This document shows positions 31,735 to 39,380 of a stretch of 44,544 nt of DNA, in pieces. The DNA is taken from positions 1 to 44,544 of the forward strand of contig JAPLKC010000044.1 in the NCBI GenBank assembly GCA_026388255.1, given 5' to 3'. The position numbers and the translations under genes were made by a program. This DNA comes from Pseudomonadota bacterium (GTDB lineage: Bacteria > Desulfobacterota > Syntrophorhabdia > Syntrophorhabdales > Syntrophorhabdaceae). The notes beneath the pieces were generated by a model. The model was not told the origin of the DNA. It ran no database searches and saw only the letters and a program-made list of their open reading frames with translations. How positions within the stretch are numbered: position 1 is the stretch's first letter; each line of letters starts with the position of its first letter.

Positions 31735-32436
31735 TCAACCTCGAATCTTTGCGCACTTATTCAAGCAGTTTTTACACATGAGCTTTGCATTGTAAAGTTC
31801 ATAAAATCGTTCAGGGTGCTTGTAATATAGATATTCCCACTGAATAATAATAATAACAGACAAAAACAAAATTGAATATGTCCAGAAAGAAGGGATAAAT
31901 ATTAAAGGAGAAAAGGCCATCAGATATCCCCAATTGTTTATCCTGCAGGTATTACAGCATTTATTTTGAATGATTGTCTTAAAGGGGCACCACACTGTAA
32001 TGCAGAACTGGTCCATAAATATGAAAAAGATAACGATAATAATGAGCCACATCGGATCAAGCAGCCCGGCAACACACCAGAAACCTATATCAAGAACAAG
32101 CAATGTCCAGTATACGGCAGAACGAATTGCCCCGAAATTCATCTTTTTTATATAATCTTCCAGCCTTTTCTGCTTTGTGTTGCTGTCCTCACCGGCCTGA
32201 ACATAGTTTCTTCCGTATATCTTCCCAAGGTTAATTTTCGGGTTCAGTCGGGGGATCAACCGTTTTACCAATATCAGGACTGCAAGAAGCCATAGTAAAT
32301 GGTATACCTTGAAGAAAGGAAGACCATAGGTAAAAGATTTTACAAGGACATGGGGATAACAAATCGCAAGAACCAACGATATCGCTAAAATCCCGCCTTT
32401 CACTGAAAGCTTAAGGATGTTGCTGTTTTTGTGCAT
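31735..32436 (-). CDS. Cysteine-rich multi-pass membrane protein, unknown
   Basis: The 233-residue protein has about six hydrophobic segments (roughly residues 13-30, 45-60, 110-127, 128-146, 173-190 and 190-205). Between segments it carries WCPF and NKCCNTCRINNWG. The C-terminus has MCKNCLNKC. The Cys clusters suggest metal or disulfide chemistry on one face of the membrane. I recognise the CCxTCRxxNW phrase as recurring in uncharacterised proteins of anaerobes but know no function. No clear Shine-Dalgarno precedes the start. It is divergent from the caspase operon, sharing a 211-nt region. Confidence 0.75.
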   Translation of the reverse strand: MHKNSNILKLSVKGGILAISLVLAICYPHVLVKSFTYGLPFFKVYHLLWLLAVLILVKRLIPRLNPKINLGKIYGRNYVQAGEDSNTKQKRLEDYIKKMNFGAIRSAVYWTLLVLDIGFWCVAGLLDPMWLIIIVIFFIFMDQFCITVWCPFKTIIQNKCCNTCRINNWGYLMAFSPLIFIPSFWTYSILFLSVIIIIQWEYLYYKHPERFYELYNAKLMCKNCLNKCAKIRG

Positions 32437-32473
32437 AGCTATAAGTTTCTGATTCTAACAAATTTTAGTTGTA

Positions 32474-32502
32474 TTGACAAACATAGTCTGCTCAAATATA
32501 AT
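32474..32502 (+). promoter_or_regulatory. Perfect consensus sigma-70 promoter of the caspase operon
   Basis: TTGACA (32474-32479), 17 nt, TATAAT (32497-32502): both boxes match the consensus exactly. Transcription would start about 32509, leaving an untranslated leader near 140 nt in which I recognise no known riboswitch. Confidence 0.85.
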
Positions 32503-32647
32503 TAACTTAATATATTATGCTAAAGCAAGGCCACCCAATCACTTTACTGTTTTCTCACAATCACATTTCCGTTCTTACTACTTTAAATAAAGAAAATAGT
32601 TGTTAAATTAAGAGAGAGAAAAGTCGTTCAATTAAAAGGAGGTTAAC

Positions 32648-33535
32648 ATGAAAAAGTATTGTTTGATCATTATGGTGCTGTTTCTTGTTTATTTAATGGG
32701 CAGCAATGTTTTTGCCCAGGGGATGCCAAGAGGCGCCAAAGCCCTTTTTGACAGTGGAGAAGGTACGACGGTAAAGATGTCTTCGGGTCCACGCACATCT
32801 ACCCCTACAGCTACTTCCGCAGCCGCACCGGCAAAATATGTGGGGATTTCTTACAAACTTGTTCTTCTGCGCCCTGACGGGAGTTTCGACATTGTCCCCA
32901 AATCACGTGTCTTCAGATCAGGCGAACGGCTTAAACTCCTTGTTAGAACAAATAAGCCGGGTTACCTCACGATTTTGAATATAGGAACGTCCGGTAACAC
33001 AAATGTTTTATTCAACGATCATGTTGAGGGGATGAGCATGCAAGAAATTCCGAAAACAGGTAATTTCCGCTTTGCCGGCGCCCCCGGTTCGGAAAAGCTG
33101 CTCATCATGCTTTCCGGCAATCCAAACCCGCTTGGATCACCCCAGACAACAACTGTTGCGCAGGCTCCCGGAGCAGTACCACCTCCACAGTCAAGTGCAA
33201 GCAATTTACCTCCTCCTCCGCCTCCACCCGGGGCCGACAGTTCACTGCCTCCTCCTCCACCTCCACCCGGCGCAAGTGCAGATGCCGGTGCACTTCCTCC
33301 CCCGCCTCCTGTCATGATGGCTTCGCTTCAAGGGTCAAAAGACATAGTTATGGATGATAACCAGAAAACTACTTATGCTGTTATCTCGCCAAAAAGCGGA
33401 TGGAAACCGGAGCCCAAAGGCAAAAAGGATATTGTTCTCGAATCAAACGGCGGTGAAAATTATGGTGTCATCCCTGCATCGTATATTGAGGACGGGAAGA
33501 TACTCACCCTTGAAATCAACTTAAGGCACAAATAG
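32648..33535 (+). CDS. Secreted DUF4384 protein with polyproline linker
   Basis: This 295-residue protein has a signal peptide (about 1-23, ending FAQ). A DUF4384 domain (about 58-155: SYKLVLLRPDGSFDIVPKSR, FRSGERLKLLVRTNKPGYLTIL) follows. Next come a Pro-rich linker with L-P7-G repeats of period 39 nt (about 180-225), and a C-terminal part with two KDIV motifs at 231-237 and 260-266. DUF4384 often occurs in or beside caspase-like proteins, and the caspase-like gene is two genes downstream. Strong AAAGGAGG before the ATG. The linker suits an extracytoplasmic, possibly envelope-spanning protein. Confidence 0.82.
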   Translation: MKKYCLIIMVLFLVYLMGSNVFAQGMPRGAKALFDSGEGTTVKMSSGPRTSTPTATSAAAPAKYVGISYKLVLLRPDGSFDIVPKSRVFRSGERLKLLVRTNKPGYLTILNIGTSGNTNVLFNDHVEGMSMQEIPKTGNFRFAGAPGSEKLLIMLSGNPNPLGSPQTTTVAQAPGAVPPPQSSASNLPPPPPPPGADSSLPPPPPPPGASADAGALPPPPPVMMASLQGSKDIVMDDNQKTTYAVISPKSGWKPEPKGKKDIVLESNGGENYGVIPASYIEDGKILTLEINLRHK

Positions 33536-33544
33536 GAGATAAAG

Positions 33545-34303
33545 ATGAAGCTTAAACACATCAAGATTTTAACAATGATCGTAACTTTCATATTCATGCT
33601 CTCATCTTGCGCTTCAATGCTGCCGGCGCCTGACCAGATTACGTCGGAAGAGGATTTGGTTATAGCAAGGAATAAATGCTTTGCCATGTATACCGTGGGC
33701 GGAGCAGCCATTGGTGCGCTTGTCGGCGGACTTGTAAAGGGTGATTGGAAAGGCGCAGGCGTTGGGGCTGCAGCAGGCGGCGCCATCGGGTTTGCATATG
33801 CCTGGGGTAAATGCCTTTCCCTGTATTCAACACTTAAAAGTCAGCCCGTTGCAGACTATAACACAACAGCCCAAAGAACAAAATATAACCCCTCCCAGGG
33901 AGATGTTGTGAAAATTGAAGGATTCAACATAAACCCTACCAGTGTTCCCCAGGGTGGGGCAGCTAACCTGAACGGGTCTTATTATGTAATGGCCCCTGAA
34001 GGCGCAAAGGAGATGAAGGTCACAGAGACAAGGACTGTGAAATACTTTGACCCTCAGAAGAAAGAATTTGTCGAACTCGGTCAGGTTGATCAGGAAATCA
34101 CTGCAGCGCCGGGGTCGAGAAAGGCGGACGGCAAGTTCGATGTGCCAAAGGATGTGCCGGAAGGTCGCTATAGAATTGCCTTCAAGGTTTCTGCTTCAGG
34201 TAAAGAAGATGTTATTGAAAAAGAAATGCTCGTTCAAAAGGCAAAGGCATCCAATACTGAAACAAATATCGAGTTGGCCGGCCTAACTGCAATCATGTGG
34301 TAG
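33545..34303 (+). CDS. Lipoprotein with glycine-zipper segment
   Basis: The 252-residue lipoprotein has the lipobox LSSC (about residues 19-22). A glycine-zipper hydrophobic pair (about 55-95, VGGAAIGALVGGLVKG and GVGAAAGGAIGFAYAWG) follows, then an Ig-like beta domain (about 120-235). Glycine zippers occur in envelope and pore-associated proteins. Ig-like C-terminal domains bind partners. It is 9 nt downstream of the DUF4384 gene with AGGAG before the ATG. Confidence 0.75.
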   Translation: MKLKHIKILTMIVTFIFMLSSCASMLPAPDQITSEEDLVIARNKCFAMYTVGGAAIGALVGGLVKGDWKGAGVGAAAGGAIGFAYAWGKCLSLYSTLKSQPVADYNTTAQRTKYNPSQGDVVKIEGFNINPTSVPQGGAANLNGSYYVMAPEGAKEMKVTETRTVKYFDPQKKEFVELGQVDQEITAAPGSRKADGKFDVPKDVPEGRYRIAFKVSASGKEDVIEKEMLVQKAKASNTETNIELAGLTAIMW

Positions 34304-34314
34304 AGGAGCATTAC

Positions 34315-35574
34315 ATGAAAAGGCTTTTCCAATGTTTATTGGCAGTATGTTTTGTCTGTTCCTTAATAACCGTGACAGGCCTCCTGTATGCCGCTGAGTC
34401 GCCTGTCACGCAATCACATCTATCTGAAATAAATGATCTTTTTAAAAGAAACAATGTACCGAAAGGGTTTGTGGAATTCGATCAGTACAACAGGGTTGTG
34501 CTAAGAGGCGAATACTCTGACGAGAAAGAAGTGGATACGGCATTCTCCCTTGCCCAAACGATTGTTGGAGTAAAATGGGTTTCTCCTGTTACGCCTGAAA
34601 ATATAAAGGTTAAGGAATGGGAAAAAAGACTCGGTGGGTTATTCAGCAGGGCTGCCGTACTCAAGCCGCGGGTATCTGACGGTATACCCGGACCGATAAG
34701 AAATAGATACGGACTGGTTGTCGGGGTCGGAAAGTTTAAAAGCAATATAAACCCTTTACAATACTCTGTCAGAGATGCCGGAAGCTTCTATAATTTTCTT
34801 GTTGATTCGAATAAAGCAGCCTTTCCGAAACAAAATGTCTATTTTCTTGTAGACCAGAATGCGACAAGGGCCAACATTGCTATGTATCTTGACGGTATAA
34901 AGAAAGCTGCCGGTCCTGACGATCTTGTCGTTATCTATATGAGCAGCCACGGTACGCCGCCGGACAAATACGGCGGTGTGAATGTTGTCACCTATGACAC
35001 AGAGGTGAAACCTCGCGAAAGGATCTGGCAAACTGCGGTTACAGAGACTATGCTGAAAGATTTTGTTGAAAATTTACAGGCAAAGCGGCTTGTTATGATT
35101 CTCGATACCTGTTACAGCAACGGCGCATACAGGGCTGTACCGGGCTTCCTTCCTGCCGGAGGCAAATCCCTCGGTGTTGGAGACGAAGATGAGGGGTACG
35201 GTGTTTCGAAAACTTACGGCAAGAGGCTTTTGGGGGCTAAAGATATTGTCTTTGAAGATGAACCCAGACCAAAGGCAAGCTCTGCAAAGAGCGTTGATTC
35301 ACAGGATGGCTATGGTAAGGTATTGATAAGCGCAAGCAGTGCAGGGGAAAAATCCTGGGAATCAGATACGTTGCGTAACAGCGTGTTTACTTACTATTTT
35401 GTAGATGGGCTTGGACGTAATCAGGGATCGGTGAAAGATGCATTCACTTATGCCAAACCGCTTGTATCGCAAAAGGTAAAACAGGAAAAAGGGGCTGATA
35501 TAGAACAAACCCCGCAGGCTATGGCGACTAATACGGACTGGAACATGCGGTTCATCCAAAGGCCGAACCGTTAA
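34315..35574 (+). CDS. Secreted caspase-like (C14) cysteine protease with BON-like domain
   Basis: The 419-residue protein has a signal peptide (about 1-28). A BON-like region (about 40-100: VEFDQYNRVVLRGEYSDEKEV, VGVKWV) follows, then a caspase p20 domain with RNRYGLVVGVGKF. The catalytic His212 is in MSSHGTP and Cys266 in LDTCYSNGA. A linker (about 285-325) contains KDIVFED (309-315). The p10 part begins near KVLISASSAGE. Prokaryotic caspase homologues usually cleave after Arg/Lys or Asp, but the specificity pocket cannot be read here. Both catalytic residues are intact. ATG 34315 has GAGGAG upstream. A GTG 18 nt earlier would be N-terminal to the signal. Confidence 0.9.
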   Translation: MKRLFQCLLAVCFVCSLITVTGLLYAAESPVTQSHLSEINDLFKRNNVPKGFVEFDQYNRVVLRGEYSDEKEVDTAFSLAQTIVGVKWVSPVTPENIKVKEWEKRLGGLFSRAAVLKPRVSDGIPGPIRNRYGLVVGVGKFKSNINPLQYSVRDAGSFYNFLVDSNKAAFPKQNVYFLVDQNATRANIAMYLDGIKKAAGPDDLVVIYMSSHGTPPDKYGGVNVVTYDTEVKPRERIWQTAVTETMLKDFVENLQAKRLVMILDTCYSNGAYRAVPGFLPAGGKSLGVGDEDEGYGVSKTYGKRLLGAKDIVFEDEPRPKASSAKSVDSQDGYGKVLISASSAGEKSWESDTLRNSVFTYYFVDGLGRNQGSVKDAFTYAKPLVSQKVKQEKGADIEQTPQAMATNTDWNMRFIQRPNR

Positions 35575-35594
35575 ATTTAAGGAGGTTTATGGAC

Positions 35595-36239
35595 ATGAGA
35601 AAAGGTTCTTTAATTATGTTTCTGGCATTATGTGTTTTATTTACAGGATTTATCGGCTGTCAGCAGAAATCAGAGGCCCCTGTTGTTGCAAAGCAGGAAG
35701 CATCTCCACCACCGCCGGCTCCTCCGCCACAGGGAACCCAGCCACCACCACCGCCATCAGGAGCACAACAAGCACCTGCTGCAGGCGAGCCGAGTCTCGA
35801 GGTAAAGTCCCACATTAAACAAGGCTTATCATACGTGAGTGTCGCAAAGAATGCAAATTCTCCTGGCATATTTAACGAAAACATCGAGAATGCCATCAAT
35901 GAATTTTCCAATGCCATTAAGAAAGACCCCAACTATGCAGAGGCATATTCAAACAGGGGAGTGGCTTACATGATGCAGAAGAAGTATAACAAAGCCCTTG
36001 ACGATCTTAAGAAAGCAAAGGAACTGAAGCCGGACAGCGCAAACATACGTTATAACCTCGCATCCTGCCATTCTCTTATGGGCAGTGTCGATTACGGTCT
36101 TGACGAGCTTGATGCGGCACTGGCAAGAGGGTTCAACAGCTATGATTCGCTGAGAAAGGACCCTGATATTGCAAATTTAAGAAAGCACAAGGAATTCAGA
36201 ACAATACTGGAAAAACACAAAGTCTTTATAACGCAGTAA
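35595..36239 (+). CDS. Lipoprotein with polyproline stretch and TPR repeats
   Basis: The 214-residue lipoprotein has a lipobox ending FIGC (about residues 19-22). A proline-rich stretch (about 38-62) precedes about two to three TPR units (about 95-175: AINEFSNAIKKDPNYAEAYS, AYMMQKKYNKALDDLKKAK). TPRs mediate protein-protein contact, so it may be an adaptor for the caspase or DUF4384 protein. ATG 35595 is placed 9 nt after GGAGG. ATG 35589 is also possible. It ends the operon. Confidence 0.85.
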   Translation: MRKGSLIMFLALCVLFTGFIGCQQKSEAPVVAKQEASPPPPAPPPQGTQPPPPPSGAQQAPAAGEPSLEVKSHIKQGLSYVSVAKNANSPGIFNENIENAINEFSNAIKKDPNYAEAYSNRGVAYMMQKKYNKALDDLKKAKELKPDSANIRYNLASCHSLMGSVDYGLDELDAALARGFNSYDSLRKDPDIANLRKHKEFRTILEKHKVFITQ

Positions 36240-36263
36240 AATCAAACCATAAGATCACCATAG

Positions 36264-36299
36264 ACCCTGCCAGATTCCAATTATCCGGCAGGGTTTTTT
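36264..36299 (+). terminator. Strong terminator of the caspase operon
   Basis: ACCCTGCC (36264-36271) and GGCAGGGT (36287-36294) form a perfect 8-bp GC-rich stem with a 15-nt loop, followed by TTTTT. It lies 25 nt after the TPR lipoprotein stop. Confidence 0.9.
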
Positions 36300-36460
36300 A
36301 AGGCAGCGCATCGAATAAAAATCCCTTAGATTTGTAAAGTTCTGTGATATAGAATAAGACCACAGGCACATTGGAAGCAGAAATATCATTTTACTGGGAT
36401 TCAATACAATAGGGGTTGATAAGTTGTGTAAAAATCACAAATCAGGTAAAAAGAAACAGC

Positions 36461-37960
36461 ATGGTTAGACAAAATCTGTCAGGGTATTGTTTCTTTGACT
36501 TTGCTCAAAAGGCAAAAAGATCTTTTGTATTGTGGGTTTTGTTGTTTCTCCTGTTTTTTGCGATATCGGCAAGGGCCGAAGAGGGCGGGGTCCCGTCATC
36601 TGAACGCAAGGGCATTCCCATTAAATTCGGCGGTGATGTACGTGTCAGGCAAACTTACTTCGACAATGTTCCATATTACAAGGATGTCCATTTTACCCCA
36701 ACTGATTTTCTTCGCTTAAGGAGCAGATTATGGGTTGAGATAAAACCAACAGAGGATTTGAGCTTTAAGGTCCGGGCAGTGAACGAGTTTAGAAAATATT
36801 TTGAACCGTTTAAGATCCGGGCAGTGAACGAGTTTAGAAAATATTTTGAACCGTCTGACAAAACTTCCTACCGGTTCCCCGACGAGATATTTATAGACCA
36901 ATTATATATGGATATACGAAATCTATGTAACGGTGAACTTGACTTCAGAATAGGAAGGCAGGATATGCGCTATGGAACAGGCAGGATTATTGCAAACGGC
37001 ACCCCTAAAAGTTCAGGGCGCACTGAATATTTCGATGCAATAAAACTCACCTGGAAGGGGATAAAGGATACCCAGATCGATATCATAGGCATTTATAACA
37101 AGCCTACAAATCAATTGATCATCAATTCGCAGGGAAGGGACCTAACGGGCTACCCCGCATCGCGCACATGGATGACGGAAACAGGCGCAGGAATATATAT
37201 TAAAAACAAGACTTTTCCGGATGTGCCTTTTGAGGCGTATAACATTTTTAAACGTGAAAGCAGTTGGGATTACAATGCGGATGACCCTTCCTATTCTCTG
37301 GCAGGCTATCAAACGCTTAACCCCGATACCGACATGATTGAAACCCCGGTGTTAAACTACAACACTATTGGTTTACGGATCATGCCGAAATTTACCGAAG
37401 CCATTGAAGGCAACTTTGAGGCAGCATACCAGTTCGGGCGTTACGAGGGCGGGCCATCCAAAACAGGTTATATGACTGATCTGTATTTAAAATGGAAGAT
37501 GCCGCTTGTGCGTGAAATAAAGCCTGTGATGGGTTTGGGATGGTACTACCTCTCGGGGGCCGATCCGAACACAAAAAAGAATGAGGGTTGGACATCGCCC
37601 TTTGCCCGGGGTGCAGGATACAGTTTGATTTATTCAACTACGCTGAGCTATGAAGATGCTGCAAGGTGGTCGAATATGAGCATGTACTATGCAGATATGA
37701 CAATAACCCCTTTTCAGTGGTTAAAGACCATTTTAACAGTAGGTTATCTCCTTGCCCCGGTAAAAGACGGTCCCGGAGAAGGAAATGTCAGAGGATGGCT
37801 CACCGCAATACAGGCAGATTTTAAGCTTGGTAAAGATCTGCTGAAAAAAAACGATGCGTTGACCGGAAATTTCCGGTTCGAAACCTTAAAGTCCGGCAAT
37901 TACTACTCTGACAATGACTACGCATATTATGCCCGCTGGGAGATTGTTTATACGTTTTGA
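36461..37960 (+). CDS. Outer-membrane barrel, alginate-export/porin family
   Basis: The 499-residue protein has a long signal peptide (about 1-37, cleaved near SARAEEG). An extended beta-barrel follows with many alternating strands, RLRSRLWVEIKP, DFRIGRQDMRYGTGRII, AYQFGRYEGG, and a final aromatic strand ending WEIVYTF, the usual outer-membrane C-terminal signature. The RIGRQ...YGTGR phrase is typical of the alginate-export (AlgE-like) family, but substrate cannot be inferred. ATG 36461 is preferred. The frame is open to TTG 36416. A weak extended -10 (TGATATAGA at 36345-36353) lies upstream. It contains a 45-bp tandem duplication. Confidence 0.85.
   Translation: MVRQNLSGYCFFDFAQKAKRSFVLWVLLFLLFFAISARAEEGGVPSSERKGIPIKFGGDVRVRQTYFDNVPYYKDVHFTPTDFLRLRSRLWVEIKPTEDLSFKVRAVNEFRKYFEPFKIRAVNEFRKYFEPSDKTSYRFPDEIFIDQLYMDIRNLCNGELDFRIGRQDMRYGTGRIIANGTPKSSGRTEYFDAIKLTWKGIKDTQIDIIGIYNKPTNQLIINSQGRDLTGYPASRTWMTETGAGIYIKNKTFPDVPFEAYNIFKRESSWDYNADDPSYSLAGYQTLNPDTDMIETPVLNYNTIGLRIMPKFTEAIEGNFEAAYQFGRYEGGPSKTGYMTDLYLKWKMPLVREIKPVMGLGWYYLSGADPNTKKNEGWTSPFARGAGYSLIYSTTLSYEDAARWSNMSMYYADMTITPFQWLKTILTVGYLLAPVKDGPGEGNVRGWLTAIQADFKLGKDLLKKNDALTGNFRFETLKSGNYYSDNDYAYYARWEIVYTF
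36764..36853 (+). repeat. 45-bp tandem duplication inside the barrel gene
   Basis: The 45-nt units at 36764-36808 and 36809-36853 are identical except one base (GTCC/ATCC, Val to Ile). They encode two copies of a 15-residue strand containing RAVNEFRKYFEP. The duplication is in frame and therefore adds one strand-like unit. Confidence 0.95.
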
Positions 37961-37976
37961 TTTTTCCTGCCCGGTA

Positions 37977-39380
37977 TTACCAGGACTCGCGCTGAAGGCC
38001 GGAAACCCCTTCATATACAATGTCACTTTCTAAAGAGCTTTTTTGTACGTCCTTAAAAACCTGCTTCTTATCAACATTAATGCCCTTTACCACCTTCAGA
38101 TAAAAGCGCATTCTGTCCCTTACACTTATCCGCCCCGGGATTGTCGTATTCAATTGCATCAGCATCCTTTTCAGCCTTTCTTCATCTATGACAGTGAACA
38201 GTATATCTTCCACATCCAGCAGGAGAAATCTGCCGTCATTCAGTACAAATATGTTGCACCCCTTCAGATCCCTGTGGGCGATCTTTTTCTCAAAAAGTGC
38301 TGCAAAGAATTGCGCGAGCGTTTTGATAAAGGCTGTTTTTGCGCCTTTGCTCATATGGTCATAAGTCTTATCAAGGTATCTATCGAGTTCAATACCTGAA
38401 CCGGTGAGGTCTTCCATGGCGACATATCCCCAGGAAAAGAGGGAATGACGTTTAACACAGTATGGCTCAGGTGTTACGCAGAGGTCTAAATATTTCACTG
38501 CAACATGGTTTTTCCACGCCAGTTGGAGTCTTCTTTTACTGCGGTAATACTTCCGTATATGGTCGTTATGCCTCTCGACTATGATCTTTTTATCTTTCTT
38601 TATTAACTGAACAGGATCGCTGTCAACAGGAATTTTCTTCCCTGCCATACAGGTATAATCTCCCCTGACAACTATCTTTGACGTATTTTCAAAGGCCCTT
38701 TCCTGTTTTTTTCTGATCCACCTTTTCCACAACCTTCCCATTTCTTTTTCAACGGATGCTCTTATGTCCTGCTCTCCATATTGGCTGAAGAAAAGTGTTT
38801 TTTCATCTGCTGTCATGCCACCATACAGCATGGTGATTGCATGGGACAGGCTTGACACCTCATCTTTCAAGCTGACACGTCCTTTAACCTGCATTTTATG
38901 CAAATCGATGAGATATAGATTTTCATTATGAATGATAATATTATTCAGATGGAGATCGTTGTGAACCACCATTTGTGTCTTTAAGGTTCTTAAAAGGTCT
39001 GCAAGCTTCAGGAGGAGCCCTGCCCGGTCTTTGCTCTCAAGGAATACATTGACAAATGTATCCCCCTCTATCCGTTCCTGAATAATATATGAACCTCTGT
39101 CTGAAATACCATACCCGAGCGGTTGGGGAGTCATGACAGAGAGCGCAAGGAGCCTTTTCCCTGCAAGGTATTCCTTCCTGCCTCTCGGCGATACCCTGTT
39201 TCTTATGAAGCCGACATTTCCCTTTTCCTTGAAGAATTTTATAAAGATTCCTTTGTCCTTATAATCGCATGTAAAGTATCCTCTCTTTACCTCTTCCTGT
39301 AAGGGAAGACCATCCAACAGGGCAACCATTCCGCTGTCATCTAAAAACCATTTTATGTTGTTGAACTTTGGAGTTTTCAT
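37977..39380 (-). CDS. Tandem protein-kinase-fold LPS kinase (two catalytic domains)
   Basis: The 467-residue protein contains two kinase-like catalytic loops. The first is VVHNDLHLNN (His140, Asp142) with metal-binding LIDLHK. The second is AHRDLKGCN (His369, Asp371) with LLDVEDI. Each belongs to the WaaP/InaA/Kdo-kinase-like group, which phosphorylates LPS core or Kdo sugars. Single-domain versions are about 230-270 residues, so this is a fusion of two. An upstream glycosyltransferase overlaps it by 4 nt (ATGA), and a carbamoyltransferase lies beyond. The gene converges with the barrel gene, 17 nt apart. Confidence 0.85.
   Translation of the reverse strand: MKTPKFNNIKWFLDDSGMVALLDGLPLQEEVKRGYFTCDYKDKGIFIKFFKEKGNVGFIRNRVSPRGRKEYLAGKRLLALSVMTPQPLGYGISDRGSYIIQERIEGDTFVNVFLESKDRAGLLLKLADLLRTLKTQMVVHNDLHLNNIIIHNENLYLIDLHKMQVKGRVSLKDEVSSLSHAITMLYGGMTADEKTLFFSQYGEQDIRASVEKEMGRLWKRWIRKKQERAFENTSKIVVRGDYTCMAGKKIPVDSDPVQLIKKDKKIIVERHNDHIRKYYRSKRRLQLAWKNHVAVKYLDLCVTPEPYCVKRHSLFSWGYVAMEDLTGSGIELDRYLDKTYDHMSKGAKTAFIKTLAQFFAALFEKKIAHRDLKGCNIFVLNDGRFLLLDVEDILFTVIDEERLKRMLMQLNTTIPGRISVRDRMRFYLKVVKGINVDKKQVFKDVQKSSLESDIVYEGVSGLQRESW

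Follow-up and report, generated by a model that had tools for sequence, protein, structure and literature searches.

To our knowledge, not many native substrates have been described for bacterial orthocaspases. Members of family C14B cleave behind basic residues by means of acidic pocket residues (PMC6426788, PMC4357240). In Arabidopsis metacaspase 4, Lys225 is located in a linker between the catalytic residues and is the site at which the enzyme cuts itself on activation; the same enzyme cuts its substrate Propep1 at Arg69 (PMC7206013). Caspases are also found at the centre of bacterial conflict systems, some of which include genes of the tubulin family (PMC7159879).

The locus analysed here lies on a stretch of 44,544 nucleotides (the window) and encodes a DUF4384 protein, a glycine-zipper lipoprotein, a caspase-like protease and a TPR lipoprotein (Table 1). 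A first-pass annotation had described four tightly spaced genes with ribosome binding sites, a perfect promoter, a strong terminator and export signals on all four products, and each of these features was found again. The genes are closely spaced and preceded by purine-rich ribosome binding sites, and the promoter is the single perfect instance of TTGACA-17-TATAAT in the whole window. The terminator was overlooked by a simple terminator scan, probably because of its long loop. As judged by eye, the DUF4384 protein and the protease start with signal-peptidase-I type signals and the other two proteins with lipoboxes, whose cysteines (C22 in the glycine-zipper lipoprotein, C24 in the TPR lipoprotein) are invariant in the alignments. 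Of 18 related operons, 9 have a promoter with at least 11 of 12 consensus positions no more than 350 bases 5' of the first gene; several of these 9 are close relatives. Half of the operons have a consensus promoter of the housekeeping type, the best reading of which is that expression is predicted to be constitutive. The family assignments made earlier were also borne out by Pfam for DUF4384 (PF14326, residues 89-158, E 7.8e-9, 35.9 bits and thus above the cut-off of 27), for Peptidase_C14 (68.9 bits versus a cut-off of 21.4, with the family matched in 21 of 21 homologues) and for TPR; the glycine zipper scores slightly below the Pfam cut-off here, yet it is matched in 19 of 19 orthologues. 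A fold search with the model of the DUF4384 protein returned no match that reached significance.

Table 1. Positions of the features discussed, in the window unless a locus is named.
Feature	Position	Strand	Details
Upstream flanking gene, adjacent to downstream one in G001	31735-32436		
Presence/absence block	32437-37976		about 5.5 kb
Promoter TTGACA-17-TATAAT, sigma-70-type	32474..32502	+	12/12 consensus match
DUF4384 protein, candidate substrate	32648..33535	+	295 aa, proline-rich linker; Pfam, alignment, model
Tag copy 1, GAKALF, Lys31	32732..32749	+	DUF4384 protein, adjoining signal peptide
Tag copy 2, GSKDIV, Lys231	33332..33349	+	DUF4384 protein
Tag copy 3, GKKDIV, Lys260	33419..33436	+	DUF4384 protein
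Glycine-zipper lipoprotein	33545..34303	+	252 aa; zipper at residues 48-82, followed by another domain at the C-terminus
Caspase-like protease, exported by eye	34315..35574	+	419 aa; Peptidase_C14 E 6.7e-19
BON-like N-terminal region of protease	34426..34581	+	Pfam E 0.017, model, partial profile match
Catalytic His212 codon	34948..34950	+	invariant, 21 homologues
Asp264-Thr-Cys266, with catalytic Cys266 and likely pocket acid Asp264	35104..35112	+	Asp264 and Cys266 invariant
Tag copy of protease, GAKDIV, Lys309	35233..35250	+	protease linker; Lys309 invariant, 21 homologues
TPR lipoprotein	35589..36239	+	216 aa; Pfam TPR, alignment
Intrinsic terminator, hairpin and T run	36262..36299	+	-19.5 kcal/mol, z -6.2
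Beta-barrel gene behind operon	36464-37960		Pfam alginate export, E 1e-8
Downstream flanking gene, adjacent to upstream one in G001	37977-39380		
Tubulin_2-bearing operon	L133 3670-8213		
Tubulin_2-bearing operon	L134 2743-7289		
Tubulin_2-bearing operon	L062 8346-12190		
Caspase and CsgG-family observation	L062 2197-4496 and 6001-7317		
Caspase ending short of catalytic Cys	L144 9158-11706		

The first-pass annotation had tied its proposal to the co-occurrence of the four families elsewhere, and the same gene order is indeed found in about 19 other genomes or loci, a few of which are cut by contig ends. These include the window's own family and order, another family of the phylum, two genomes with the label Syntrophaceae and others that are assigned to Nitrospirae or Thermodesulfovibrionales (Nitrospirota). 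In one Desulfobacterota locus (L083), just the zipper-caspase pair is kept. The genes flanking the operon vary between groups of genomes. In G001, the one sister species examined, the operon is absent and the two flanking genes are adjacent, about 20 bases apart; the presence/absence block therefore comprises the operon together with the beta-barrel gene that follows it. The beta-barrel protein contains a tandem duplication, with RAVNEFRKYFEP occurring twice, and its gene has no match at the related operon loci. A secreted-looking protein of 1,784-2,049 aa is encoded divergently on the upstream side of the operon in L066, L068, L070 and L073, with PKD and TPR domains in the case of L070. It was rejected as a candidate substrate, being no constant neighbour and having no KDI-type tag (three of the four copies have only YDSKGLR).

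More distant forms of the operon encode caspases that are 21-28% identical to that of the window (28% in Paraburkholderia L062, about 25% in L116). L115 and L116 belong to two single-contig genomes of another family and have two extra genes and one extra gene, respectively, before the TPR gene, while the order in L062 is zipper-caspase-DUF4384. L133, L134 and L062 have an additional Tubulin_2 (PF13809) gene, and another TPR protein takes the place of the TPR lipoprotein; in L133 and L134 this protein starts with a zinc-ribbon-like stretch and has a single apparent membrane helix. These versions of the operon suggest a link to the cytoplasm. Judging by eye from LLSAC, the L062 caspase is apparently itself a lipoprotein, and a gene for a CsgG-family lipoprotein is located nearby. 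In L144, the caspase ends short of the catalytic Cys and the DUF4384 protein retains RSIR tags. The window's own genome contains a second caspase cluster (L183, contig C122) encoding a 742-aa protein that matches both caspase and DUF4384, together with a caspase of 366 aa and a TPR protein, among which no tag of the operon type is held in common.

The catalytic residues of the protease, which had been described as intact in the first-pass annotation, are both invariant in 21 of 21 homologues. The same applies to Asp154 and Asp264, the likely S1 pocket acids, which were equated with Asp95 and Asp211 of TbMCA2 by motif position. The best solved fold found by Foldseek, using a structure model of middling quality, was the yeast metacaspase Yca1 (E 3.5e-11), and the score against the EACC1-associated caspases (NF047832) was 66.1 bits, below the curated cut-off of 140. 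The best reading of these features is that the protease is an orthocaspase, with a predicted preference for Lys or Arg in the P1 position. A BON-like region at its N-terminus can be added to the earlier description: residues 33-99 of the model follow the BON-type helix-strand-strand-helix-strand order, and in a profile comparison the region partly matches a genuine BON protein. Full BON membership (PF04972) was dropped and the region is named BON-like only, since its 15.9 bits lie under the Pfam cut-off of 27; one of the 21 homologues is matched at E 0.05.

The protease and the DUF4384 protein have a short sequence tag in common. The pattern [GSA]-x-[KR]-[DGSAN]-[IL] occurs three times in the DUF4384 protein and once in the caspase, where the site corresponds in most homologues to the p20-p10 linker. 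In the alignment of DUF4384 proteins, G29, A30, K31, A32 and F34 of copy 1, G229, K231 and D232 of copy 2 and G258, K260 and D261 of copy 3 are invariant, and the structure model places each of the three copies in coil of a pLDDT below 50 around the beta domain. Five variants of the tag were found, namely KDI, KDL, KGI, RSI and RDI. In all 17 operons compared, the caspase contains a tripeptide from the tail of the DUF4384 protein encoded with it. KDL occurs in both proteins of L080 and L082, possibly as the result of one single event, KGI in those of L062, RDI in L116 and RSI in L115. The matched variant is present in none of 17 glycine-zipper proteins and none of 15 TPR proteins. When the five variants were compared with five caspases, all own pairs were filled and just two cross matches appeared (KDI in L115, KDL in L116). 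RSIR and RDII were found in fewer than 0.5% of shuffled L115 and L116 caspases. The tag was spotted first and these tests were run afterwards, on few independent lineages. Shuffling with 8-mers had too little power within one operon, so the tests relied on the presence of the tag and the matching of its variants across the full set of operons. The strict DNA pattern of the tag, searched for in the whole genome, is found at two operon sites, at one place outside the listed reading frames and in one cytosolic-looking gene.

Our leading, still tentative reading is that the operon is a constitutive module of the envelope in which the orthocaspase would cut both itself and the DUF4384 protein after Lys or Arg. 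The two lipoproteins would hold the protease, which is predicted to be exported, at the outer membrane, a scaffolding role that is plausible. Once triggered, the protease may cut its own linker after Lys309 and the DUF4384 protein after Lys231, Lys260 and perhaps Lys31, thereby releasing or rearranging the beta domain of the latter. The tag would be the common cleavage sequence of both proteins, which would explain why protease and substrate change together. By analogy with metacaspase 4, Lys309 is proposed as the self-processing site and the DUF4384 protein as the dedicated substrate. The broader proposal that a caspase of the envelope has its own dedicated substrate, with one co-evolving recognition tag across phyla and a proteolytic switch outside the cytoplasm, is put forward with a little more reserve. 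A purpose in envelope maintenance or maturation is more likely than one in cell death. Of the roles suggested in the first-pass annotation, the self-contained proteolytic unit of the envelope is supported by the conserved gene order, the differing flanks and the adjacent flanks in G001; maturation has gained support from the tag common to protease and partner, and self-killing finds no support.

The most serious alternative, although we consider it unlikely, is that the tag is a docking or assembly motif: one receptor would bind the same peptide in both proteins and build a complex at the outer membrane, and the true substrate would be found elsewhere. That receptor might be, for example, the BON-like domain, the DUF4384 domain or the glycine-zipper lipoprotein by way of its C-terminal domain. 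The caspase tags of L115 and L116 lie at different places, outside the p20-p10 linker, for which a docking motif is an equally suitable explanation, and the residues on the primed side of the tag are conserved as strongly as the lysine. Moreover, copy 1 adjoins the signal peptide, so that a cut there would remove a mere stub, which speaks against cleavage. However, the one feature kept in all copies of the tag is a basic residue, the expected P1 of this class of enzymes, and the linker position agrees with known self-cut sites.

An improbable reading is that the protease serves general scavenging or quality control after export and has no dedicated substrate, with the DUF4384 protein acting as a structural or inhibitory partner. 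The constitutive type of promoter and the many contexts in which orthocaspases are found (PMC3501461) would suit such a role, but it leaves the matched tag and the constant gene set unexplained. Still less probable is a role in self-killing or against phages, for which the protease, once activated, would damage the envelope, perhaps via the glycine-zipper protein. Defence systems do include caspase-like proteases, one caspase model of PADLOC is matched by the protease (E 4.9e-12), and the distribution of the operon is patchy; however, the other three proteins match no PADLOC defence model, no relative was found on viral contigs, the promoter is of the consensus housekeeping type, and the conserved set includes no recognisable sensor, regulatory or immunity gene. 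PADLOC, PHROGs and the scan of viral contigs returned nothing specific for a link to defence or phages. The least probable explanation, a structural coincidence in which the caspase linker and the DUF4384 tail each have a similar beta-strand and are functionally unlinked, may draw on the fact that four-residue words common to two proteins are not rare, but five variants are matched between the partners, two of them at non-homologous places, and none of eight DUF4384 proteins from elsewhere than the operon, several encoded beside other caspases, has the tag.

For the reading as a self-cutting protease with a dedicated substrate, the sequences point to a candidate substrate, to exact bonds and to five natural matched variants, so that it could be tested by one cross-cleavage experiment. 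If true, a caspase-type switch would be located in the bacterial envelope.

The four-gene set is not described in the available sections of a survey that covers caspase homologues of prokaryotes and the operons in which they lie (PMC3501461), nor in the accessible parts of papers that mention DUF4384 together with caspases. Caspase and DUF4384 pairs of the same phylum (L177, L179-L182) likewise have adjacent genes; however, their caspases are larger or different and their DUF4384 proteins lack the tag. The conflict systems (PMC7159879) resemble the operon in that a caspase is part of a multi-gene set, and a tubulin-family gene is present in three distant operons here, but MoxR-vWA, GTPase or peptidase-cascade components form the basis of these systems, and none of these components belongs to the conserved set. 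The likeness to metacaspase 4 and Propep1 would consist in a linker lysine as self-cut site and in a distinct substrate that is cleaved behind a basic residue, whereas metacaspase 4 itself is eukaryotic and cytosolic, has a large linker domain and is controlled by Ca2+ (PMC7206013). Orthocaspases and prokaryotic metacaspases of family C14B (PMC3501461, PMC6426788) have in common with the protease the p20 fold, the catalytic His and Cys and both acids that suit a basic P1. Compared with those described in the accessible text of these sources, this protease differs in its predicted export and in having a BON-like N-terminus, a fixed four-gene operon and a partner-matched tag. Since the features tested fit an orthocaspase, the operon seems to represent an orthocaspase in a new context.
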